DNA of 64,000 nucleotides, taken from positions 1 through 64,000 of the forward strand of contig SCRN01000025.1 in assembly GCA_004322045.1 (NCBI GenBank), read 5' to 3'. Shown one piece after another: positions 44,079 to 63,565 of this stretch. Source of the DNA: Paraburkholderia sp. Its GTDB lineage: Bacteria; Pseudomonadota; Gammaproteobacteria; Burkholderiales; Burkholderiaceae. Under the pieces are notes generated by a model. The model ran no database searches. It was not told the origin of the DNA and saw nothing but the letters and a program-made list of their open reading frames with translations. A program made the translations under genes and the position numbers. Every line of letters starts with the position of its first letter. Within the stretch, counting starts at the first letter, position 1.

Positions 44079-44153
44079 GGGTGGTTAGCTCAGCGGTAGA
44101 GCACTGCCTTCACACGGCAGGGGTCACTGGTTCGATCCCAGTACTACCCACCA
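44079..44153 (+). tRNA. tRNA-Val (anticodon CAC)
   Basis: A 75-nt cloverleaf from GGGTGGT to ACTACCC-ACCA. The anticodon arm is CTGCC-TTCACAC-GGCAG with CAC at 34-36; the T arm has GGTTCGATCCC. CCA is encoded. The accessory region with an integrase gene begins right behind it, so its 3' end is the natural candidate attachment site. Confidence 0.96.
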
Positions 44154-44185
44154 GATTCATGGGTATGTAGGAAGCCCGAAGAACA

Positions 44186-44328: not shown

Positions 44329-45348
44329 ATGGCTGGAATCTGGAAGCGGGGAAAGTATTGGCGGGTCGAGATCCGCAGACTCGGCTACCCAACCCTCAAT
44401 CGTACTTTCGACTCGAAGGTCGACGCTGAAGCGTGGGCACGAAGTATCGAAGCCGAAATGGATCGAGGCATCTTCGTCGATCGAACCGAGGCCGAAATCA
44501 CCAGCTTCGGCGATCTGCTCAAGCGATACGCCGCGGAAATCTCCCCTCACAAAAAGGGCGGCGACGGAGAAATCCTGCGTATCCAGAAGCTGCGCAAGGA
44601 CAAGCTTGCAGAGTACAAGGTTTCGGCACTGACCGGCAAGGTCATGGCCGAATATCGCGATACCCGACTCCGACAGGTGACTGGATCCACAGTCAACCGT
44701 GAGTTGACCCTGATTGGTCACGTGCTTACGATCGCCCGAAAGGAATGGGGTTTTCCGCTTGAGGTCAACCCCGTGTCGATGATCCGCCGCCCAAAGGAAA
44801 ATCGAGCTCGAGCCCGCCGACTTTCCCCGGCTGAAGAAAAGCGCCTGCTTGCTGAGCTGACTCCACGCCCACGCGATGAAAACGGCCGTTTCGAGCCAGG
44901 CGGTTGCCGCAACGAATGGGTACTGCCCGCTGTGATCCTCGCCATCGAATCCGCCATGCGTCGCAGCGAAATCCTTTCGCTGCGCTGGCCTGACGTATTT
45001 CTCGATGACCGCTTCGTCCGGCTGCATGACAGCAAGAACGGTGAGGCACGAGATGTTCCACTCTCGACGCGTGCAGCCGCCACGCTGTCAGCCCTGCCCC
45101 GTCACCCATCTGGCCGCGCATTCCCGATCACCGGGGAAGCCCTCAAAAAGGCATTTACTCGTGCGTGTGAACGTGCCGGCCTCGAAAACATGCACTTCCA
45201 TGACTTGCGCCATGAGGCCACATCACGCATCGCGACCCGACTCGACAACATCCTTGAGTTGAGTGCAGTAACAGGCCACAAGACCGTCCAGATGCTGAAA
45301 CGGTACTACCACCCTCGCGCGACGGACCTGGCAAGAAAACTGGGATAA
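44329..45348 (+). CDS. Tyrosine-type site-specific integrase
   Basis: A 339-residue phage-type integrase. An AT-hook-free N-terminal arm-binding part (GKYWRVEIRRLGYPTLNRTF) and a SAM-like core-binding domain (about 58-150) precede the catalytic domain with Arg in AMRRSEILSLRW, Lys in DSKNGEARDVPL, His/Arg in HDLRHEATSR, His in VTGHKTVQML and the nucleophile Tyr in KRYYHPR. It would recombine the element with its chromosomal site, most likely at the adjacent tRNA-Val. GGAG 7 nt upstream supports the ATG. Confidence 0.92.
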   Translation: MAGIWKRGKYWRVEIRRLGYPTLNRTFDSKVDAEAWARSIEAEMDRGIFVDRTEAEITSFGDLLKRYAAEISPHKKGGDGEILRIQKLRKDKLAEYKVSALTGKVMAEYRDTRLRQVTGSTVNRELTLIGHVLTIARKEWGFPLEVNPVSMIRRPKENRARARRLSPAEEKRLLAELTPRPRDENGRFEPGGCRNEWVLPAVILAIESAMRRSEILSLRWPDVFLDDRFVRLHDSKNGEARDVPLSTRAAATLSALPRHPSGRAFPITGEALKKAFTRACERAGLENMHFHDLRHEATSRIATRLDNILELSAVTGHKTVQMLKRYYHPRATDLARKLG

Positions 45349-45490: not shown

Positions 45491-46129
45491 ATGATTTTGC
45501 TGATCGCAGCGGAAAAAGGCGGCGTTGGCAAATCGACGCTTGCCACGAATCTGGCCGTTCACTTAGCTCATCGGGGCGTGGATGTCGTGCTACTCGATAC
45601 CGACGGGCAAGCGACAGCAGCCCGGTTTGTCGAGCGGCGTGACGGAGCCGGCGTCACGCCCGCCATACCGTGCTTTCAGCGTACGGGCGAAGTCGCCTCA
45701 ACCCTGCGGGACCTCGCTCGCCGGTATCAGGTTATCGTGGTTGATGCGGGAGGTCGCGATTCGCGCGAAATGCGCTCCGCAATGGCCGTCGCGAATCTAC
45801 TGCTTGTGCCGACCAAGGCCAGTCAGGCCGACCTAGAGACGTTCCCGAAAGTCAACGAGCTGATCAGCCTAGCACGCGGACTGAATCCGGAATTGAAGGC
45901 AGTAGCGCTCCTCTCGATCGCTCCATCCAACCCGGTGATTCGTGAAGTCGAAGACGCACGGGAGCTTCTAGCTGAGTTCGACCAGCTTGAACTGGCCGAC
46001 ACGATCATTCGCGACCGCAAGGTTTACCGCGATGCGCTCTTGGCTGGCAAGGGCGTAACCGAACTCGACAACAGCCAGGCACGCGCGGAAATCCAGCTTC
46101 TGGCGCAGGAATTCTTCGACCTTAGGTAA
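45491..46129 (+). CDS. ParA/ParF-type partition ATPase
   Basis: A 212-residue Walker-type ATPase without an N-terminal DNA-binding domain, like ParF (type Ib). The deviant Walker A KGGVGKST (residues 9-16), the A' motif LLDTDGQATA and Walker B VIVVDAGGRD are complete. It would segregate the element when it exists as a plasmid-like circle, together with the RHH protein encoded 11 nt downstream. GGAGGG lies 6 nt before the ATG. ACTC boxes flank the pair. Confidence 0.9.
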   Translation: MILLIAAEKGGVGKSTLATNLAVHLAHRGVDVVLLDTDGQATAARFVERRDGAGVTPAIPCFQRTGEVASTLRDLARRYQVIVVDAGGRDSREMRSAMAVANLLLVPTKASQADLETFPKVNELISLARGLNPELKAVALLSIAPSNPVIREVEDARELLAEFDQLELADTIIRDRKVYRDALLAGKGVTELDNSQARAEIQLLAQEFFDLR

Positions 46130-47586: not shown

Positions 47587-48795
47587 TTGAAAGGAATCAA
47601 CATCAGATTGAGCACTACGCTCGCCGGTGCCGCACTACTCTCTCTCAGCAGCAGCGCGTTTGCCGTTTGCGACGGATGTGTTGTCGGCGCAGTCAAAGAG
47701 GCGGAAATAACCCTCCAGACGGCGATCGCCTCTCTCGGATCATCGCTAACTACCCTTCTCAATGAGATAGATACCGATATTGCCAGCATCGGGTCCAAGA
47801 TGTCCGACAGCGTCGTTCAGGCTGCGAACACACAGCGCGAAATGTCACTCGAAGTACAGCGGCAGCAGGAAATGGATCAGGTTGCCCGCGAAACGGAATT
47901 GCCACTCGACCCGTGCGCTACGTCTTCGAGCAACTATGCGGTGCAAGCCGTTAGCGGCGCTGCCTCTGTCTCGTCGTCGCTGCGTCCGGGTGGCGCACAC
48001 GTCAGCTATCCGCCACTCGACAAGGCGCTGAACTCGCCGGCCCCGTCTGTTGAGGCTTCGCGTCGCGCTTCGGCGAGCATTCACTCCGATAACTACTGCA
48101 CTCCGCTGGAGTTGCAGCTTGGCTACGCGGGCTGCAAGGCATCGCAAATGCCCGATGGCGACGCGGATGTGGACTCGGTTTTCATCGGTGCGGGCATGCC
48201 GGGAAAGGGCGTCGATCTGACGTTCACGCAGCAGCAGCAGGATGCGGCACGCGCCTACGCGCGCATGTCGATCGACCCGTCACCACCCGAGAGCATCAAC
48301 AAGGCCGAGGCAGCGACGGAGACCGGCAAGCTATATGTTGCGATGCAGAAGGCCTACCAAGCCAACATGTCATCGGCAATCAAGCCGATCAACGACCTCA
48401 TCGCTTCGCGTAGGCCGTTCGACGGCAGCAGCCAACTGGTTCAGGATCTCAAGCAGTCTGACGCTGCCGCTCAGTATTTCAACGCGACCGCATCCAGCGT
48501 CGCGAAGACCACCGGCAAGATGAGTTTCGCCGAACTTGAAGATTTCGAGGCCGGCCGCCGTTGGCGTAACCCGTACTGGCAAATTGAGTTTGGCGCGATC
48601 GCCGACCCAACCAAGCTCATGCGCGAACTGCTGTTCACCACGGCTTTCCTGGCCGACCAGACGCACGAGCATGTCGAGTTGCAAAGGAAAGCGAATGTGC
48701 TGTTGGGACAACTGCTTGCAAACAACGAGCGCGGAGCGGATCGCACCGCGATCGAAACGCAGCTACAGCGCGTGCGCGCGACGAACGCAAGGTAG
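47587..48795 (+). CDS. Exported TraW/IcmX-like conjugal transfer protein (tentative)
   Basis: A 402-residue protein if started at the TTG at 47587, which begins a textbook signal peptide ending SSSAFA; an ATG at 47545 would overlap the previous gene by 32 nt and put extra charge in front of the signal. Visible are CDGCVVG at the mature N-terminus, a coiled-coil-prone stretch (about 35-90) and four more cysteines. I infer TraW/IcmX from size, export, and its place ahead of PilV, TraX-like and TraY genes in I-type transfer regions; the sequence itself gives no strong motif. Confidence 0.6.
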   Translation: MKGINIRLSTTLAGAALLSLSSSAFAVCDGCVVGAVKEAEITLQTAIASLGSSLTTLLNEIDTDIASIGSKMSDSVVQAANTQREMSLEVQRQQEMDQVARETELPLDPCATSSSNYAVQAVSGAASVSSSLRPGGAHVSYPPLDKALNSPAPSVEASRRASASIHSDNYCTPLELQLGYAGCKASQMPDGDADVDSVFIGAGMPGKGVDLTFTQQQQDAARAYARMSIDPSPPESINKAEAATETGKLYVAMQKAYQANMSSAIKPINDLIASRRPFDGSSQLVQDLKQSDAAAQYFNATASSVAKTTGKMSFAELEDFEAGRRWRNPYWQIEFGAIADPTKLMRELLFTTAFLADQTHEHVELQRKANVLLGQLLANNERGADRTAIETQLQRVRATNAR

Positions 48796-50427: not shown

Positions 50428-50948
50428 GCAACGAAACGAAGAAAACCAGCATCGGCCGCCGTGTCGCACGTGGGATCGCCTACAACATGGTCCCAGGCTA
50501 TCCGATCTACAAGGCGTTTTCGTCCGGCAAGGAAATGATCGTCGGCGGCGCAAAGACAGTGCTCGATCAATACAAAGAACTCGAACGGCAGCGGCCAACA
50601 AGCCGGATTGTGCGCACCTATCGCGAAGCGCTTGCACTCCGACCGGCCGACGCAGCGCCTCTGGAGTCGATCGCGCGGCATTGTCTCAATTGCAAGCGTA
50701 TGTGCCTCTTCGTCGCGTACCTGTGCCTCCTGTCGTTCATCTACGGGGTGGTCGGCAGGTACTTCCTGGTCGTGTTCATCAGTGTTTTTGCTGCCGAGCT
50801 CCCGTTGCTGTTCACGGTCAAGTACGAGCACCGTCTGTGGCAACTGGAGACCGGTCCTCTTCGGCCCGACGAACCGCTTGGCAGCTACGGTGATTTTTTT
50901 CGCTCTCGCGGCGCGCTCCTGCGGTTATTCAATCCGCGTCTCTTCTAA
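50424..50948 (+). CDS. TraX/IcmV-like inner-membrane protein (tentative)
   Basis: A 174-residue protein: a basic amphipathic N-terminus (GRRVARGIAYNMVPGYPIYK), a cytosolic stretch and two TM segments (about 95-135). IcmV/TraX proteins have the same size and layout and are encoded next to DotA/TraY. Here TraY follows at 13 nt. The call rests mainly on layout and context. Confidence 0.6.
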   Translation: MSNETKKTSIGRRVARGIAYNMVPGYPIYKAFSSGKEMIVGGAKTVLDQYKELERQRPTSRIVRTYREALALRPADAAPLESIARHCLNCKRMCLFVAYLCLLSFIYGVVGRYFLVVFISVFAAELPLLFTVKYEHRLWQLETGPLRPDEPLGSYGDFFRSRGALLRLFNPRLF

Positions 50949-50961
50949 CCGGAGTCCGGCG

Positions 50962-53166
50962 ATGCTCAAGCTCAACATGTTCAAGCGCGCAACCGTAGCC
51001 TTATCGCTCGTCCTTGTAGCGGCAACGGCATTTGCCCAACAGGCGAGGGTTTCGGTCGGCGACATCCAGAACGCGGCGAATCGCAGCGGCGACAAGTCGA
51101 TGTCACTGCTGGAACTGGTCTACGGCCCGATCATTCACAACCCGCTGCTCGCTGGAAGTGGATCGGGTGGCATGATGGCGCAACTGTTCCTCGTGCTGAA
51201 TGCATGCATGCTCGCGGTCGGCGCGGTTTGGGCCGGTTATCACTTCCTCACCGCGGCAATTGCGACGGGAGCGGACGGCGAGTTCATGGGCCAGAAAAAA
51301 TCGTCGCCCTGGTTCATGATCCGAACAGGGGCCGGCTTCACTGGCCTAGTTCCGATCTTTGCGGGCTACAACGGCGCGCAAGCCGTTATGCTTTGGGGAA
51401 CAATGTTCGGCGTTGGTGTTGCGAACCTGTCGCTCGATGCGGCGGTTACCGTGCTCAATAGCGGCGGTTCGATGATCGCGACGCCGGCCGCGCCGCAAGC
51501 AACGACCTTGGCAAAGGCTCTGTTCGAAGCGAACCTGTGCGCGCAGGCCGCAAACACGGCCATCGACGACATGCCCAACGACACGGGCGTGTCGGTTGAT
51601 CCCGCCGAGAAATTCATTTCGTCCGGGACCGGATCAAAGATCGTCTTGATAAACGGGCGTGGTCTTTCCTGCGGCGGGGCGGAAATTGGGATTTCGGCCC
51701 CGCCGTCGATCCCGCAATACGATGCCATGGGCATGGCCGTTTATATGAACGACCCGGCCCCGGAGTATGACAACCTGCTTTCCGCTCACCAAAGCGCGCT
51801 CAAGGCGGTGCAATCAACGCTGTCCGGTGCCGCGCAAGCCTACGTGTCAGCTATCGACAGGCAGGGTCAACCGGCCGACCCTGCGAACACCATCAATCAG
51901 GCCGCATTGCAATACCAGGCCACAATCACGAAGGCGCTCGCGGACTCGTCAAGCGGCATCAACCAGCTTGCAAGCGTCATCCAGTCGAACCTCCACCGTG
52001 ACGGCTGGATCATGACGGGTGCCTGGTATCAGACTTTCGCGCAAGCAAATTCGCAGCTAACAAGCCTCGCGAACGCGACAGCCGCAGCAGTGTCGGGAAC
52101 CAGCCCCGACAACCTGCCTTACCCGCAGTTGTACCGAAAAGTGAGCGCGGTCTACAGCCAGCAACTACAGTTAGACGCATCAGTTACGACCGCCCAAGGC
52201 TCCCTGCAAAACCTGACCACGGGCATTAGCGGCACAGACCCGAAAAGCCTCCTTGGCAAGCTTGTCGACACGCAGGGTCTTGTGAGATGGGCGGTCAACC
52301 TCAACTCGGGACAAGAGCCAAACGGATCGACCAATCCGCTGATCGGCATGAAGAACCTTGGCGACTACATTCTCGACGCTGGCTGGACCGCGCTCGGCAC
52401 GTATGGCGTCGTCAAGGCTACCGTGGGCGCGGCGAAAGAGAGTACGGCCGGGAAAATTGCCGATGTGGTCACCGGTGGCATTACAGGAGTGTTGACGGGC
52501 GCAGGCGACGGCCTGTTGAGCGCGCTCGCTCCGTTCATCGTGATAATCCTCGTCACACTGTTTTTCTTTGGCGCGATGCTGTCGATCTATATCCCAATGC
52601 TGCCGTTCATTGTGTGGTTCGGGGGCATTCTATCGTGGTATGCAGTGGTCGGCGAAAGCGTCGTTGCTGCGCCACTGTGGGCGTTTGCTCACCTTGATGG
52701 CGATGGCGAAGGCATGGGCCAGCGCACCACGCACGGCTACATCTTCCTTCTGAACGTGATGTTCCGCCCCGTCTTCATGGTGATCGGTTTCGTACTTGCC
52801 GGGGCCGGCGTGGTTGTGCTCGGCACGTTGCTCAACACGATGTTCGGAGTCGCATTGGCGAACGCGCAATTCGACTCGTCAACCGGGCTGGTGAGCATCA
52901 TCGGTTACATCGTTCTCTATGTCGGTATGTGCCAGACGTTGGTGCAAGGCACCTTCTCACTGATCCACGTTGTACCCGATCAGGTGTTCGCGTGGATCGG
53001 CGGGCAGATGACGGGTGCGGTTGGTCGTGACATGCACGACAGGTCCAAGGGAGTCTTTGACGCGGGTACGAAGCACGGGCAGGGAGCCGCTACGTCGCTC
53101 GGGCGTGGCTCTCCGAAACCGGCCGGTCCTGGGACCGTCGTACCGCCCCCACCAGCAGACGTTTAA
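50962..53166 (+). CDS. DotA/TraY family type IVB secretion membrane protein
   Basis: A 734-residue protein with a signal peptide (LVLVAATAFAQQ), a TM segment near residues 75-100, a large periplasmic domain (about 130-480) and a C-terminal membrane bundle (about 510-690: APFIVIILVTLFFFGAMLS, YIPMLPFIVWFGGILSWY, then two or three more). The IPMLPFIVWFGGILSW and PLWAFAHLDGDGEGMGQ blocks with GYIFLLNVMFRP are typical of DotA/TraY. In Legionella DotA is an inner-membrane channel component that is also secreted; TraY is its plasmid counterpart. GGAG 7 nt upstream fixes the ATG. A terminator follows. Confidence 0.88.
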   Translation: MLKLNMFKRATVALSLVLVAATAFAQQARVSVGDIQNAANRSGDKSMSLLELVYGPIIHNPLLAGSGSGGMMAQLFLVLNACMLAVGAVWAGYHFLTAAIATGADGEFMGQKKSSPWFMIRTGAGFTGLVPIFAGYNGAQAVMLWGTMFGVGVANLSLDAAVTVLNSGGSMIATPAAPQATTLAKALFEANLCAQAANTAIDDMPNDTGVSVDPAEKFISSGTGSKIVLINGRGLSCGGAEIGISAPPSIPQYDAMGMAVYMNDPAPEYDNLLSAHQSALKAVQSTLSGAAQAYVSAIDRQGQPADPANTINQAALQYQATITKALADSSSGINQLASVIQSNLHRDGWIMTGAWYQTFAQANSQLTSLANATAAAVSGTSPDNLPYPQLYRKVSAVYSQQLQLDASVTTAQGSLQNLTTGISGTDPKSLLGKLVDTQGLVRWAVNLNSGQEPNGSTNPLIGMKNLGDYILDAGWTALGTYGVVKATVGAAKESTAGKIADVVTGGITGVLTGAGDGLLSALAPFIVIILVTLFFFGAMLSIYIPMLPFIVWFGGILSWYAVVGESVVAAPLWAFAHLDGDGEGMGQRTTHGYIFLLNVMFRPVFMVIGFVLAGAGVVVLGTLLNTMFGVALANAQFDSSTGLVSIIGYIVLYVGMCQTLVQGTFSLIHVVPDQVFAWIGGQMTGAVGRDMHDRSKGVFDAGTKHGQGAATSLGRGSPKPAGPGTVVPPPPADV

Positions 53167-56603: not shown

Positions 56604-56856
56604 ACTGCATTGAAAGTGATAACCGACCAGGCGCTCGGCTAGCATGGCTGGCGACGGCGTGACACCGTCCAGTGACCGCGGTTCGAGCGAAGCACGGGCA
56701 GAAAATCCGTCCTGCTGCCAACCCCCGACGGCTGACTACGGGTGTCGGCCATCAGCAGTCGATTGCCGCATCATCCCCGATGCGGATGTTCGTGTTTGTG
56801 AGATCATCTCCAGTAGAAAAATCTTATAGGGAAGCCGTGAGCTTCAGGGGTATTTG

Positions 56857-57981
56857 ATGACGAGCAAGCTATCTTTACTCACATCGCCAGATGCCGTAAA
56901 AGCCGCGATGGCGGAATGTGACCAACTCGGTCGTGACGACTTTCTCGAGCAATATGGCTATAAACGCTCGCGGCTTTACCAGCTTCACCACCACGGGAAG
57001 ACTTACGACTCGAAAGCTATCGCGGGCGTGGCCTACGGTAAGCAGCATGGTAGTGCGTTGAGGGCGAAGGATTTTTCTGGTGGAGCCGCAACGGTTGCTC
57101 GTGTCCTCGGTCGATTAGGATTTCCTGTCAACGAAACTCCGCACCCGATCGCTAGTCTCGTTAAAGGGGCCACCTATTTGAGGAAGAATTTGCTTGAACA
57201 ATACGGTGGCCAGCTCCAGAAGGGTATCTGGACACCGCGGGAATTTCCGGTTGTCTTCATCTTTACAGGCGACAGCGGCAAGGCCTACGGTTATAGCGAT
57301 GGATGGACTGAGGATGGCATCTTTCGGTACACGGGTGAAGGGCAATCCGGCGATATGACATTCACAACTGGGAATGAGGCAATTCGCGGACATCGCAAGA
57401 ATGGCAAAGACCTACTTTTGTTTGAAGACCTTGGGAAGGGTAAGGGTGTCCGCTATACCGGCTTGTTTGAGTGCGCCTCATGGGACGAGATGAGCGGGAT
57501 CGATAAAGAAAAGAAGTCTCGCAAGATCATAGTTTTCAATCTGATCCCGGTGAAGACCGCCGCTATAGATACTGACATTCCCTTCGAAATTGCTCTGCCT
57601 AACGAAATCCAATCTCTCGATGAACTTAGGGAAGCGGCATATGCTGCATCAGTCGTTGAGAAAGCAATCTCGAAAGCTGGCAATACCAAGCGGTCATGGT
57701 ATGAACGAAGCGCTAAGGTGCGCGCCTATGTACTCGCCCGATCGAAAGGAATTTGCGAAGCTTGTGATGAACCAGCGCCATTCCGCAAAAAGGACGGCAG
57801 CCCCTACTTGGAACCCCACCACACTAGTCGATTAGCGGATGAAGGACCTGATCATCCGGCGTGGGTAGGAGCAATTTGCCCTACGTGCCACAGGCGCATT
57901 CACTCTGGAATAGATGGAACGAACTGGAATAGGCTGCTTCAGGAACGGCTAGAAGCAAAGGAAACGCACAGTCATTCTTGA
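56857..57981 (+). CDS. SRA-like / HNH endonuclease (ScoMcrA-like, type IV restriction candidate)
   Basis: A 374-residue protein in three parts. Residues 1-90 (FLEQYGYKRSRLYQLHHHGK, YDSKAIAGVAYG) match the N-terminal head domain of ScoMcrA-like proteins. Residues 100-240 look like an SRA/YDG-type modified-base reader (YGYSDGWTEDGIFRYTGEGQ, then GDM, GNEAIRGHR, LLLFEDLGKGKGVRYTGLF). Residues 285-365 are a zinc-bound HNH nuclease (CEACDEPAPF, LEPHHTSRLADEGPDHP, CPTCHRRIHSG). It would cut DNA carrying methylated or otherwise modified bases. No methyltransferase is adjacent, as expected for type IV. AGGGG precedes the ATG. The gene is AT-richer than its neighbours. Confidence 0.85.
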   Translation: MTSKLSLLTSPDAVKAAMAECDQLGRDDFLEQYGYKRSRLYQLHHHGKTYDSKAIAGVAYGKQHGSALRAKDFSGGAATVARVLGRLGFPVNETPHPIASLVKGATYLRKNLLEQYGGQLQKGIWTPREFPVVFIFTGDSGKAYGYSDGWTEDGIFRYTGEGQSGDMTFTTGNEAIRGHRKNGKDLLLFEDLGKGKGVRYTGLFECASWDEMSGIDKEKKSRKIIVFNLIPVKTAAIDTDIPFEIALPNEIQSLDELREAAYAASVVEKAISKAGNTKRSWYERSAKVRAYVLARSKGICEACDEPAPFRKKDGSPYLEPHHTSRLADEGPDHPAWVGAICPTCHRRIHSGIDGTNWNRLLQERLEAKETHSHS

Positions 57982-59006: not shown

Positions 59007-59150
59007 CTCCAGGGGACAAATGGGCGCCTTCCATCAACGCTTCAGGGGGCCCTCCGCGGTGTTGTTCAGTCCTTCAGCAGCCTGCTAGGCCGCCGATTGT
59101 GTACACTGGCATCCAACCAACACCTCTATTCGCCAGGACCACGCATAATC

Positions 59151-62100
59151 ATGAAAACGATTTGCCTACTTCACTTGTCAGATCTGCATTTGATGAACGC
59201 CTTATATGAGGACCAGCGGGTAGTTTTGAATGCACTTTTTAAAGACCTAAAAATACAACGAGATACCCTGGGGGAGGTGGATGCCATACTTTTTACTGGC
59301 GACCTTGTTGGGAAGGGAACATTCACTTCGGACGCCGTAGATTCGCTTAATGAAAAATTTATCCTGCCAATTCTACAGGGAAGTGGCGCCGCCGACGGCC
59401 GGATTTTCATGGTTCCCGGGAACCATGATGTCGAACAAGCAAAGCGGAGTCAGCTAGCAAAGTTCGCCATTGAGAGCCTAAAGACCATTGAGGATGTGAA
59501 CGGGACATTGGATGATCCGTCTAGTGTTTCTGCTTTATCGACCGCGTTTGACAGTTATTCGACCGTCCGCGACAGATTTGTAAAATCAAAGCGATTATTA
59601 TCCAATGGTCTGTACGAATCATATGAAATAGAAATTCATGGGAAAAAGATCGGAATCGCAGCGATCAATTCGGCTTGGTGCTCCTCAGGAAAATCCGAAA
59701 ACGCAGATTACGGAAAGCTGCTGATAGGTGGACGCCAAATCGAACAACTCGCTCGCAGTCTCATAGAGTGCGATCTAAAGCTTGCGCTTCTTCATCATCC
59801 ATTTCCTTGGCTCGCTGAATTTGATCAATCAAACGTGCAGCGAAAGATATACGACAGCTTTGATGCGGTTTTTTTTGGTCACAATCATCATAGCGACGCT
59901 TTGTCGCTGGCGAGGCCGTCGGGCAAGATTTTTGTTAGCAACGCCGGTTGTCTGTATCAGGGACGTGGATATTTTAATTCGTACTCCATAATCAAAGTTG
60001 ACATTGACAGTTCGCAATGGCAAGCGCACGTTAGAGAGTATTACGAAGATCGCGAGTCATTTGGGCCAAGCGAAAGATTTGCGCCAGGAGGTACGCAGAC
60101 ATATGATATGTCTGGGATGAAAGCCCAGGGGGCGATTAATGCGCTACCAACAGAAGAATTTCTTGTTGCGGCCGCAGAAGCAGCGAACAGCCAACTTCTC
60201 TCCATGTCTATTTCCGAGATCGCGCCTAGAAATCTCGCCCAGCTTTTTGTCGTCCCTCCTCTGCACACGGTTTCTGAGCGCCAACTGGGCGCGAATAACG
60301 CTGACAATCCAAAACGTGAACCCCTGCAACTTTCGAAGCTACTTGCCGGGGATGCAAGTGTCATATTTGTTGGCGCAAAAGAATCTGGAAAAACAACATT
60401 ACTAAACTACGTATGCACGCAGGCAAACGACCTGACATCGGGAAACCCCAGTAGTCTTGGCGCATACGTTAACCTTCACGCTCTCAGCAAGCAAACTCGA
60501 GCGGGAATACTTCAATCGATAGTAAATTTTTCGAACGGCGCCTACCCTCGATCCCATTTCATCAAGCTTCTCGAAATTGGGCAAATGTCCCTTTGCCTCG
60601 ATAACTTGGATCTTTTTGATGCACGTCTCGTTGCGATGGTGAAAGATTTCATAACGCAATACCCACGCAACAAATACTATATCTCTGTTCTAGATACTTT
60701 TCAAACTTCGTTGGCAGGCACATCTATCCCAAAGCTAGCCGACAAGCAAATGGTGGCATATATCCACTCGTTCCGTCGCAAAGAAACACGTGAATTGATG
60801 CAACGCTGGTTTCAAGGAAGCGACTCGGTAGCACCTGAAGATGTGGACAACATATTGGCGTCTCTGAAGAGGCTTAACATTCCTCGCACGCCTTTCCTGA
60901 TCTCTATCTTTCTTTGGGTGCATGAGCGAAACATCGCATTTGATCCGGTAAATCACGCGGAAGTTCTGGACACGCTTATTGATGGAATGCTGGACAAGTT
61001 TCATGAGTCGAAATCCCGCAGTCGCCTTGATTCGACCGCAAGGCGGCATTTTTTGAGCGACCTCGCGTATCACATGTATCAGTTGGGGCGCGACTACGTT
61101 ACATGCAATGAGCTAGAGATCTTCACGGCCTCATATTTTCAAAATAAGCTTTTGAGTGCGGCTAGCGCACCATTTATAGATGAACTCAGAGATAAAGGGT
61201 TGTTTATCGAGGTGGATGATGCTGTGTATTTCAAATTTGACTGTTTGCGAGCGTTTTTCTTATCCACAAGATTGCAAGAGTCATCGACATTTTTCAACGA
61301 AGCTTTTACCGCTGAAAAACTGTTAACTTTGAGCCAGGAAGTTGATTATTTTACCGGTAAGCAGCGTGGTAGGGAGGACGCACTGCGAGGTGCGCTGCGG
61401 ATACTAGATGAATATTACTCCCCGGTGAAATTGGATCTCGATCTTTCGCTCTTCGACAAAGTTGATGCAGGGGACCTACCCGTTAGCACGGAATTTCGCG
61501 ATGACCTCGAACGAGAGTTGTTTCCTCCGCGCCTCTCTGATGAGCACCGCGAAAACTTGCTGGACGAGGCAGACGCTCAGACTGCGCAGAATGCCCAGAT
61601 TCCTGAGCGCAAGCCTTCGCTCACGAGTTCCAAGGTTCCGGGGACGGTTCCGGATTTCATCCTAGCTTTGCAAATAGCGTCAGCGATTCTACGCAACTCG
61701 GAACTTATCGATGATGCTTCACTTAAACGGTCCGCCTACCAACGGATCGTGCGCTATTGGTGCGAAGTCTTGCTGGCGTCGATACTTACAGTTGATCTTA
61801 AGGACGACAATGAAGCCTTGCAGGATCTGAAGCGACATCTTCCAATGTTTAACGACGATCAATTTGGTCTATTGATGAAGCTTGTTGTACCAAATGTGAT
61901 CGGAAGCGTCATGTTTGAATATCTCGGAACCAGTCAGTTGGACCTTGTTATGAAGGAACATGCAGATCAAGCAGAATATTCCATTGAAAGATTGATGAGC
62001 ACTATGCTTCAAATTGATCTGTCGCTACCTGGCTCTCTCGATGCAGTTGAGCGCTTGATAAAGAGTGGCAAGGTTAGCAAATTTTCGATTGTAATCGTTT

Positions 62101-62300
62101 TGATGAAATTGCTGGAGAAATATCTTTTCAAGCCGATGCCAGCGACCGAGGCTGACAAGCTTCGCAGGCTTATAGGAGATACATTCTTATCGCAACGCCC
62201 CGGTGGCAGCACGAAAGAAAATATCCTTCAACGGGACCAATTCGTTACATTTATGTCTAGGAACAGAAAATCAAACCTAAACCAAGCGTCAACGGACTAG
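59151..62300 (+). CDS. Calcineurin-like phosphoesterase fused to STAND/NACHT-type ATPase (candidate defence protein)
   Basis: A 1049-residue protein. Residues 1-300 are a complete metallophosphoesterase: LSDLHL (Asp11, His13), FTGDLV (Asp51), PGNHDVE (90-93), LLHHPF (215-216), FFGHNHH (243-246). Residues about 395-640 are a STAND-type P-loop ATPase: FVGAKESGKTT (Lys414, Thr415) and LCLDNLDLFD as Walker B, followed by a winged-helix-like part (RTPFLISIFLWVH). Residues 640-1049 are helical and may be the sensor. The gene is visibly AT-richer than the core genome, stands alone and lacks a strong ribosome site. The enzyme head plus STAND switch plus sensor layout is that of bacterial NLR/Avs-like immune proteins; substrate and trigger are unknown. 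Confidence 0.85.
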   Translation: MKTICLLHLSDLHLMNALYEDQRVVLNALFKDLKIQRDTLGEVDAILFTGDLVGKGTFTSDAVDSLNEKFILPILQGSGAADGRIFMVPGNHDVEQAKRSQLAKFAIESLKTIEDVNGTLDDPSSVSALSTAFDSYSTVRDRFVKSKRLLSNGLYESYEIEIHGKKIGIAAINSAWCSSGKSENADYGKLLIGGRQIEQLARSLIECDLKLALLHHPFPWLAEFDQSNVQRKIYDSFDAVFFGHNHHSDALSLARPSGKIFVSNAGCLYQGRGYFNSYSIIKVDIDSSQWQAHVREYYEDRESFGPSERFAPGGTQTYDMSGMKAQGAINALPTEEFLVAAAEAANSQLLSMSISEIAPRNLAQLFVVPPLHTVSERQLGANNADNPKREPLQLSKLLAGDASVIFVGAKESGKTTLLNYVCTQANDLTSGNPSSLGAYVNLHALSKQTRAGILQSIVNFSNGAYPRSHFIKLLEIGQMSLCLDNLDLFDARLVAMVKDFITQYPRNKYYISVLDTFQTSLAGTSIPKLADKQMVAYIHSFRRKETRELMQRWFQGSDSVAPEDVDNILASLKRLNIPRTPFLISIFLWVHERNIAFDPVNHAEVLDTLIDGMLDKFHESKSRSRLDSTARRHFLSDLAYHMYQLGRDYVTCNELEIFTASYFQNKLLSAASAPFIDELRDKGLFIEVDDAVYFKFDCLRAFFLSTRLQESSTFFNEAFTAEKLLTLSQEVDYFTGKQRGREDALRGALRILDEYYSPVKLDLDLSLFDKVDAGDLPVSTEFRDDLERELFPPRLSDEHRENLLDEADAQTAQNAQIPERKPSLTSSKVPGTVPDFILALQIASAILRNSELIDDASLKRSAYQRIVRYWCEVLLASILTVDLKDDNEALQDLKRHLPMFNDDQFGLLMKLVVPNVIGSVMFEYLGTSQLDLVMKEHADQAEYSIERLMSTMLQIDLSLPGSLDAVERLIKSGKVSKFSIVIVLMKLLEKYLFKPMPATEADKLRRLIGDTFLSQRPGGSTKENILQRDQFVTFMSRNRKSNLNQASTD

Positions 62301-62842: not shown

Positions 62843-63565
62843 TCAATCCGCCTTGTGTTCGCGCCGCTTCGCGCTCGCCATTTTGAATCGAGCGAGGCGA
62901 TCAACTTTCGGCGAATGCTTGATAGGACGCACGGTGCTTACAAAAGGTACCTTAACCCGTTCGCCACGGCCTCTCCGGCCGTGGACTGCATGCCCATAGA
63001 CGCCGATGGAGTAATCGCTGAGGTGACCCATGACCTTGGCTGCCTGCTCCAGAGTTATTTCTCGGTCGAAGGTGGCAGCCTTCAAATCGGACGCTACTTG
63101 ATGGCGAAAACAATACGGACTGATCCGCGTCCGCAACTTTGGGAATGCGCTTCTGCCTAGGGCCACTACGCTGTTGTACAGGTAATCTTTGTTGTGCGTG
63201 ATCGTGTACTTGCCGGCCCCGTTGACAGTGTTCCGCCACGCAAGGGCGTGTAGAAAGCGTAATGCAGGGTTGCCATTAGCATCTACGCGAAATCCGATGT
63301 GCCGCGTCGGTTGACCGCGCTCTCGGCCACCCGCGTCCACACATTTCGCGCCCTTGATCTTGATCGCGAGTTGGTCGCGAGACGCGGCAAGCTCGATGCC
63401 CTGCTCGATTTCGGCAGGGCGGCATCCTGTGATCCAGAGCACGGCAAGCGCAGGCATTAGCTGCGGCCGTGATTGCTGCCATGCTGGCGCCGATGCCGCT
63501 ACCCATATGGATTCGCGCCAGTCTGGCGGCAGCAGCCTAAGTGCAGATTTCTTCGCTTTTCCCAT
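62843..63565 (-). CDS. Tyrosine recombinase, catalytic-domain-only integrase
   Basis: A 240-residue protein that starts directly with the catalytic domain: Arg in TGCRPAEIEQG, RHQ box as SPYCFRHQVASDL (Tyr stands where the first His of HxxR is usual), GH in AAKVMGHLSDYSI and the nucleophile Tyr in GVYGHAVHG. The arm-binding and core-binding domains of the integrase at 44329 are missing. Such short integrases with this RHQ variant occur in Burkholderia islands, so it may be whole rather than truncated. It points leftward, into the island, and could mark a second, nested element. Confidence 0.75.
   Translation of the reverse strand: MGKAKKSALRLLPPDWRESIWVAASAPAWQQSRPQLMPALAVLWITGCRPAEIEQGIELAASRDQLAIKIKGAKCVDAGGRERGQPTRHIGFRVDANGNPALRFLHALAWRNTVNGAGKYTITHNKDYLYNSVVALGRSAFPKLRTRISPYCFRHQVASDLKAATFDREITLEQAAKVMGHLSDYSIGVYGHAVHGRRGRGERVKVPFVSTVRPIKHSPKVDRLARFKMASAKRREHKAD

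Follow-up and report, generated by a model that had tools for sequence, protein, structure and literature searches.

DS-8 is a single protein containing a metallophosphatase and a NACHT domain, and it protects E. coli (DefensePredictor, Science 2026, PMC13092281). In that article, mutants at phosphoesterase residues or at ATPase residues lose protection either way, and the authors likened the DS-8 head to SMPDL3A, the cyclic nucleotide that it degrades being still to be identified. Earlier comparative work listed calcineurin in 2021 as one of the head types found on STAND proteins (PMC8195603), and calcineurin is the commonest effector in a separate, GTPase-centred conflict system (PMC7159879). 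The present study deals with a gene of this kind in Paraburkholderia sp. It lies near the right end of a stretch of 64,000 nucleotides (assembly GCA_004322045.1, contig SCRN01000025.1, positions 1 to 64,000 of the forward strand), which is called the window here. The protein has a three-part architecture, in which a calcineurin-like metallophosphoesterase (MPE) head is followed by a STAND-type nucleoside triphosphatase (NTPase) and a helical tail, and it is referred to as the MPE-STAND protein. Taken as a whole, the analysis indicates that it is most likely antiphage. We consider it probable that it is a single-protein switch of the DS-8 / PDC-S60 kind, in which an infection cue would lead to STAND switching and oligomerisation, the phosphoesterase would act on a phosphodiester substrate and phage growth would be stopped. 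A sequence-only reading of this DNA had proposed a stand-alone immune protein, and by homology this proposal appears well supported.

Profile searches place the protein near two described groups. The PADLOC single-gene candidate PDC-S60 (PDLC05051) matched residues 6-995 with 355 bits (2e-106), covering positions 3-981 of the 1027 in the profile, and no profile-level difference between PDC-S60 and the MPE-STAND protein was seen. PDC-S60 is a candidate name, under which no paper was found in a literature search that took in neither subscription papers nor preprints. The NCBIfam model DS8_antiphage (NF053861) matched residues 8-710 with 195.3 bits (1.3e-57). The equivalog cut-off of this model is 790 bits, which rules out a true DS-8 identity. 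The protein of locus L004, from another genome of the same bacterial family, scored 1098.3 bits and is DS-8 by the cut-off; thus the MPE-STAND gene is a relative and not DS-8 itself. The two proteins share about 25% identity across the part aligned by BLAST. Six full-length relatives (L010, L017, L019, L020, L021 and L031) scored 119.5-205.8 bits with the DS-8 profile; with PDLC05051 five of them scored 302.6-386.2 bits and L020 scored 152.6.

Like DS-8, the MPE-STAND protein is a single protein with an N-terminal metallophosphatase, a central STAND/NACHT NTPase and a further C-terminal part. Both active sites are kept, and head and NTPase are homologous by hidden Markov model. It differs from DS-8 in lying on a separate branch, and phage tests exist for DS-8 alone. 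DS-9A (NF053862) has a related phosphoesterase domain (3.6e-10); DS-9, however, is made up of two genes and includes a HAD phosphatase, and the passage on it in PMC13092281 mentions no STAND NTPase. YydB (9a6c_B, an integrative model) is a 481-residue chain, modelled with YydD according to the entry title. Judged by sequence, the gene is a divergent-branch addition to the DS-8 / PDC-S60 type. The phosphoesterase-STAND kind of defence protein is already known. The earlier view that such an architecture is little described could not be kept, because calcineurin heads were listed in 2021 and DS-8 was validated in 2026, as PMC8195603 and PMC13092281 state; the architecture is therefore not new. 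What is new is that the gene is cargo of a tRNA-Val element, that it has a McrA-like neighbour, that its chassis is homologous to that of the DS-8 group and that its motifs are conserved.

The homology to the DS-8 type extends behind the head into the NTPase and the tail. When the NTPase and tail of the MPE-STAND protein were compared with the DS-8 group by profile-profile alignment, 608 columns were aligned (probability 99.7, E 7.7e-27), the DS-8 group profile being made of four TIR-headed proteins, the DS-8 protein of L004 and the fragment L008. The four TIR-headed proteins (L005, L006, L007 and L009) come from genomes of the same phylum as the window and contain the NTPase and tail of the DS-8 profile (positions ~290 on) without the phosphoesterase. 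PADLOC ThsB-type TIR models matched the heads of L007 (1.8e-51) and L009 (1.4e-27), and the TIR heads of L005 and L006 were assigned by alignment to L007. The DS-8 protein of L004 aligns significantly with all four only beyond its head, the alignments starting at residues 314-353. These TIR-headed STAND proteins (PDLC05050) thus share a homologous NTPase and tail with the MPE-STAND protein and differ from it in having TIR instead of a phosphoesterase. One chassis that carries either a TIR or a phosphoesterase head is what one would expect of a head that serves as the effector. From the alignments, head swapping is apparent on the DS-8 side only: a search of 398 genomes with the NTPase-tail alignment found no alternative head on the gene's own branch, its matches in 4 genomes comprising the phosphoesterase proteins found in G000 and in G685, a partial match to the TIR-headed protein of L007 and one match broken into fragments. 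A different arrangement was seen in Bradyrhizobium diversitatis (L047:5291-9094, 1268 codons), where the phosphoesterase motif begins near residue 932 and the head seemingly is C-terminal.

The head of the MPE-STAND protein matches Pfam Metallophos (2.4e-13, residues 7-247), and structure comparison shows that it folds like SMPDL3A and Rv0805. The sequence-only reading had described a complete calcineurin-type site in one chain of 1049 residues, and each of its motifs was located, intact, at the residues given in Table 1. The alignment behind the motif counts in the table contains 13 proteins of the gene's branch and one DS-8. It should be noted here that the 14/14 counts for the phosphoesterase motifs are partly by construction, because 8 of the 14 proteins (L021, L022 and L030-L035) were found by scans using phosphoesterase-motif patterns; L004, L010, L017, L019 and L020 were found without such patterns. 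The gene begins with ATG and is one uninterrupted frame with zero internal stops. With an alternative TTG start at 59097, 54 bases upstream, the protein would have 1067 residues; in the Caballeronia protein a Met codon aligns with the ATG of the window, and its frame also continues upstream. A chance open reading frame (ORF) or a pseudogene was ruled out, since the frame is intact and a near full-length match to a family profile of 1027 positions at 2e-106 excludes a chance origin. An ordinary housekeeping phosphoesterase (SbcD-like) was ruled out as well, as the chain also has an NTPase and a tail and belongs to a family that is a candidate for defence.

In the middle part, both the P-loop (G408-T415) and the Walker B aspartate (D484) are present, and the two motifs quoted earlier, GAKESGKT with Lys414 and LCLDNLD, were found again. 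The family profile weakly matches the solved NTPases of NLRC4 and NRC2 (E 0.003-0.01). The proposal that this part is a STAND ATPase is supported by the nSTAND_NTPase4 subdomain, which passes its Pfam threshold, and not by the Pfam NACHT profile (PF05729), which stayed sub-threshold (12.6 vs 26.7 bits gathering score). In Foldseek with AlphaFold2 models, the best NTPase matches were NLR NACHT domains (NLRP3, NOD2 and NLRC4). In a viral structure library, the matches at E 0.001 or better had mostly phosphoesterase/SbcD-type or ATPase names, and one was NLR-like (A0A8S5V3T3, 3.4e-7). Membership in Avs (AVAST) was rejected, no PADLOC model of that name being among the matches listed: a search at E up to 1 gave three models, two of PDC-S60 and one Endonuclease effector. 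PADLOC does include Avs models.

The helical nature of the C-terminal part was recovered in the predicted models, with a confidence that is partly low: pLDDT (predicted local distance difference test) values are below 50 at residues 772-796 and 813-828 and over most of 880-920. For the tail a fold is neither claimed nor denied, as the structural match rows cover mainly the NTPase. Identity to six distant relatives is 26-31% in the head, 19-27% in the NTPase and 17-22% in the tail; to the Caballeronia protein it is 64% in the tail vs 66% in the head.

Table 1. Coordinates of the MPE-STAND gene, its domains and motifs, and other features of the locus (window positions unless stated otherwise).
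Feature	Position	Strand	Evidence
MPE-STAND gene, 1049 aa	59151..62300	+	PDC-S60 PDLC05051 match 2e-106, residues 6-995
Calcineurin-like metallophosphoesterase head, residues 1-327	59151..60131	+	
Motif I DxH (D11-H13)	59181..59189	+	14/14 aligned proteins
Motif II GD (G50-D51)	59298..59303	+	14/14 aligned proteins
Motif III GNHD (G90-D93)	59418..59429	+	14/14 aligned proteins
Motif IV HH (H215-H216)	59793..59798	+	14/14 aligned proteins
Motif V GHxH (G243-H246)	59877..59888	+	14/14 aligned proteins
STAND-type P-loop NTPase core, ~residues 400-560	60348..60830	+	Foldseek NLRP3/NOD2/NLRC4; profile NLRC4/NRC2 weak
Walker A GAKESGKT (408-415)	60372..60395	+	Lys in 12/14
Walker B LCLDNLD (481-487)	60591..60611	+	D484 in 14/14
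nSTAND_NTPase4 subdomain (650-704)	61098..61262	+	Pfam PF24406 29.4 bits, gathering score 27
Helical tail, residues 716-1049, candidate sensor	61296..62297	+	helices in predicted models
McrA-like type IV restriction gene, separate cargo	56854..57981	+	ScoMcrA 5zmm 2e-23; EcoKMcrA HNH 6ghc 1.5e-15
attL, 57-bp perfect direct repeat overlapping 3' part of tRNA-Val	44109..44165	+	
attR, second 57-bp copy	contig 67030-67086 (C53; L048:3030-3086), outside window		
Tyrosine integrase adjoining tRNA-Val	44329..45348	+	Phage_integrase 5.2e-22
ParA-type ATPase	45491..46129	+	Pfam MipZ, CbiA above cut-offs; NCBIfam ParA_partition 139 bits, cut-off 180
Conjugation protein TraW	47590..48795	+	243 bits, cut-off 100
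DotA/TraY family conjugation protein	50854..53166	+	413 bits, cut-off 100

We infer the trigger, the oligomerisation, the substrate and the outcome for the MPE-STAND protein as follows. The tail or another part of the protein would detect an infection cue, upon which the STAND NTPase would change its nucleotide state and oligomerise. Oligomerisation would bring together or unmask the N-terminal metallophosphoesterase, which in turn could hydrolyse a phosphodiester substrate, either a nucleotide or nucleic acid. Phage growth would then be stopped, probably at the expense of the cell.

The gene lies in a mobile element. A tRNA-Val gene at 44079-44153 overlaps the left copy of the repeat, and the region bounded by the two copies is 22.9 kb long. 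The GC content of this element is 57.2% and that of its flanks 63.5 and 64.3%; the MPE-STAND gene has 46.8%, in agreement with the earlier description of it as AT-rich. In addition to the genes in Table 1, the element carries a RepA_C gene; its complement of conjugation genes is partial, and a match to TraX was weak (20.6 bits vs a cut-off of 100). The tRNA-Val site was matched in all 10 other genomes of the genus that were searched, and 5 of them were fetched. In 4 of these 5 the right flank follows the left flank within ~1.7 kb, too short a distance to hold the element; the 7 kb fetched for the fifth (L065) gave no match to the right flank. On this comparison of sequences, the MPE-STAND gene is cargo of an integrative, plasmid-like element in tRNA-Val. 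The idea of defence-island cargo thus stands as far as cargo of a mobile element is concerned; the carrier is an integrated plasmid-like element and no classical multi-system defence island. Further to the right, a frame of 240 residues at 62846-63565 on the minus strand by eye resembles the catalytic domain of a tyrosine recombinase; it gave a weak DUF4166 match only in Pfam (0.11), none in NCBIfam and none in the PDB at 0.1.

Upstream of MPE-STAND, the first gene that can be recognised is the McrA-like one, which agrees with the restriction-type neighbour noticed before. The neighbourhoods of 12 full-length loci with flanks (the window, L010/L074, L017, L019, L020, L021, L022, L030, L031, L032, L033 and L035) were compared, and a clear defence-type gene was found within 10 kb in 6 of them. 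Besides the window with its McrA-like gene, L017 has a cytosine methyltransferase (4e-93) together with Vsr and HNH genes, L020 has Tmn (3.3e-75), L022 a PDC-S35 TIR protein (1.4e-121), L030 a CBASS/Pycsar-type TIR (2e-41) and L035, directly downstream, a type IIG enzyme (7.4e-287). Outside this count are a HEPN-nucleotidyltransferase gene in L031 (PDC-S09, 1.7e-6), a VapC pair in L019, an ankyrin protein in L021 (PDC-M72A, 8.3e-18) and a GajB-like helicase in L033 (5.3e-14). No defence-type gene was seen in the one gene of L032 that was scanned singly, and none by eye in L010/L074. L034, which has no flank and contains N, was left out of this count and of the structure alignment, and L018, an 869-residue copy of the L022 protein, was not counted separately. 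The scan covered 118 of 148 ORFs, 30 short or overlapping ones being dropped by eye (among them L030:8766-9575, later tested). The group scan displayed 25 of 99 families without telling which member had matched, and 20 genes chosen by eye were scanned singly; others were possibly missed. Two CAP12/Pycsar-type TIR genes, both on the minus strand, lie ~0.4 kb (L030:8766-9575) and 1 kb (L022:14130-14963) from the relatives. Their occurrence near 2 of the 12 relatives possibly reflects a partner, or chance.

Relatives of the gene were looked for in several collections. In the bacterial-family sample the protein was matched in 4 of 398 genomes at 1e-15, and beyond the genome of the window a full-length match was found only in G237. 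Of 11 genomes of the genus, 1 had a match, namely that of the window. The Caballeronia protein mentioned above is that of L030 (Caballeronia temeraria); it is 69% identical to MPE-STAND and stays in register with it across head and P-loop. In the phylum sample PDLC05051 was matched at 1e-40 in 2 of 398 genomes, namely G685 and that of the window. Scanning yielded 18 loci in genome contigs (6 full-length) and 9 in viral contigs (IMG/VR; 2 full-length); of 15 plasmid records with a match, 3 covered 80% or more of the query, and among 50,697 records of named phages there were zero matches. The branch ranges over Burkholderiaceae, alphaproteobacteria, Bacteroidota and viral contigs. The relative in G685 (L074, G685:C1:3622000-3641000) has ~35% GC in a stretch of chromosome of mostly 60-72% and stands solitary beside a gene taken by eye for uvrB. 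L018 (CP079755.1), on a plasmid labelled Klebsiella grimontii, is an 869-residue version of the 1050-residue protein of the viral contig L022; the genes around it look Gram-positive by eye (one is annotated YueH), and the species label may be wrong.

Some of the data weigh against the proposed antiphage STAND switch, or at least against a simple ATP-driven form of it. The second structure aligner gave, for the NTPase, an NLR match tied with Orc1/Cdc6. The Walker A lysine is replaced in 2 of the 14 aligned proteins, by Arg in L019 and by Ser in L020, and 10 of the 14 have Asn right after the Walker B Asp. From these residues, ATP hydrolysis by the branch may be slow or dispensable. As regards the neighbourhoods, a control region on the window's own chromosome gave matches to 17 PADLOC families at 1e-10 in its set of 56 proteins, led by mad3 (3.3e-153, two proteins), and the PADLOC matches of neighbours have to be discounted because the control region gives such matches too. 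No restriction or methyltransferase model was among these 17 families. The 56 ORFs of the control had a minimum length of 150 aa, the neighbours were taken from 110 aa upwards, and with the two sets unmatched no statistic is claimed. The 6 of 12 loci favour the expected link with defence genes, a result qualified by the unmatched control.

The substrate of the head is the point on which a competing view has most weight. The head could be a DNase or RNase instead of a nucleotide phosphodiesterase, nicking or degrading DNA like Mre11/SbcD or the bacterial MPE endonucleases; this is compatible with the antiphage switch, and we put its chances slightly short of even. In a different proposal, the interchangeable heads would have the same kind of task: just as TIR consumes NAD+, the phosphoesterase would drain the pool of an essential nucleotide, without DNA cutting, the switch in this branch would be ATP binding and not hydrolysis, in view of the Asn after the Walker B Asp, and the members without the P-loop lysine would signal without nucleotide. 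We regard this combination as doubtful. It could also be imagined that the protein is a cyclic-nucleotide phosphodiesterase which clears a phage-made signal or restrains a signalling system encoded nearby, and is no killing effector. The similarity of the head fold to SMPDL3A and Rv0805 is in its favour, as are the CAP12/Pycsar-type TIR genes adjoining L030 and L022 and the HEPN-nucleotidyltransferase gene adjoining L031. However, the related DS-8 chassis can carry TIR effectors in the head position, where an effector fits better than an eraser, and DS-8 acts as one protein (PMC13092281), which makes this role unlikely. No neighbour named cyclase was found among the matches listed, in tables covering part of the neighbours only, and absence is not implied. 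Quite unlikely is a function for the element itself, such as exclusion of rival plasmids or element control. The location together with TraW, DotA/TraY, ParA and RepA_C genes on an integrated, plasmid-like element and the relatives on plasmids and viral contigs might point to it, but around the solitary, low-GC relative of G685 no conjugation gene is seen by eye over ~9 kb on the upstream and 5 kb on the downstream side, and DS-8 protects against phage (PMC13092281).

The single-protein antiphage switch therefore remains our preferred explanation, and it bears on a wider question. As STAND effectors, phosphoesterase heads are still little understood; the authors of the DS-8 work state that its substrate has yet to be identified (PMC13092281), and the substrate of the head is the point that would add most to the interest of the present finding. 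A divergent branch together with a related chassis that carries TIR heads means that head swaps on one chassis could reveal the target of the head. The diverged tails of the branch can be compared with one another, and this offers a way to ask what the tail senses.

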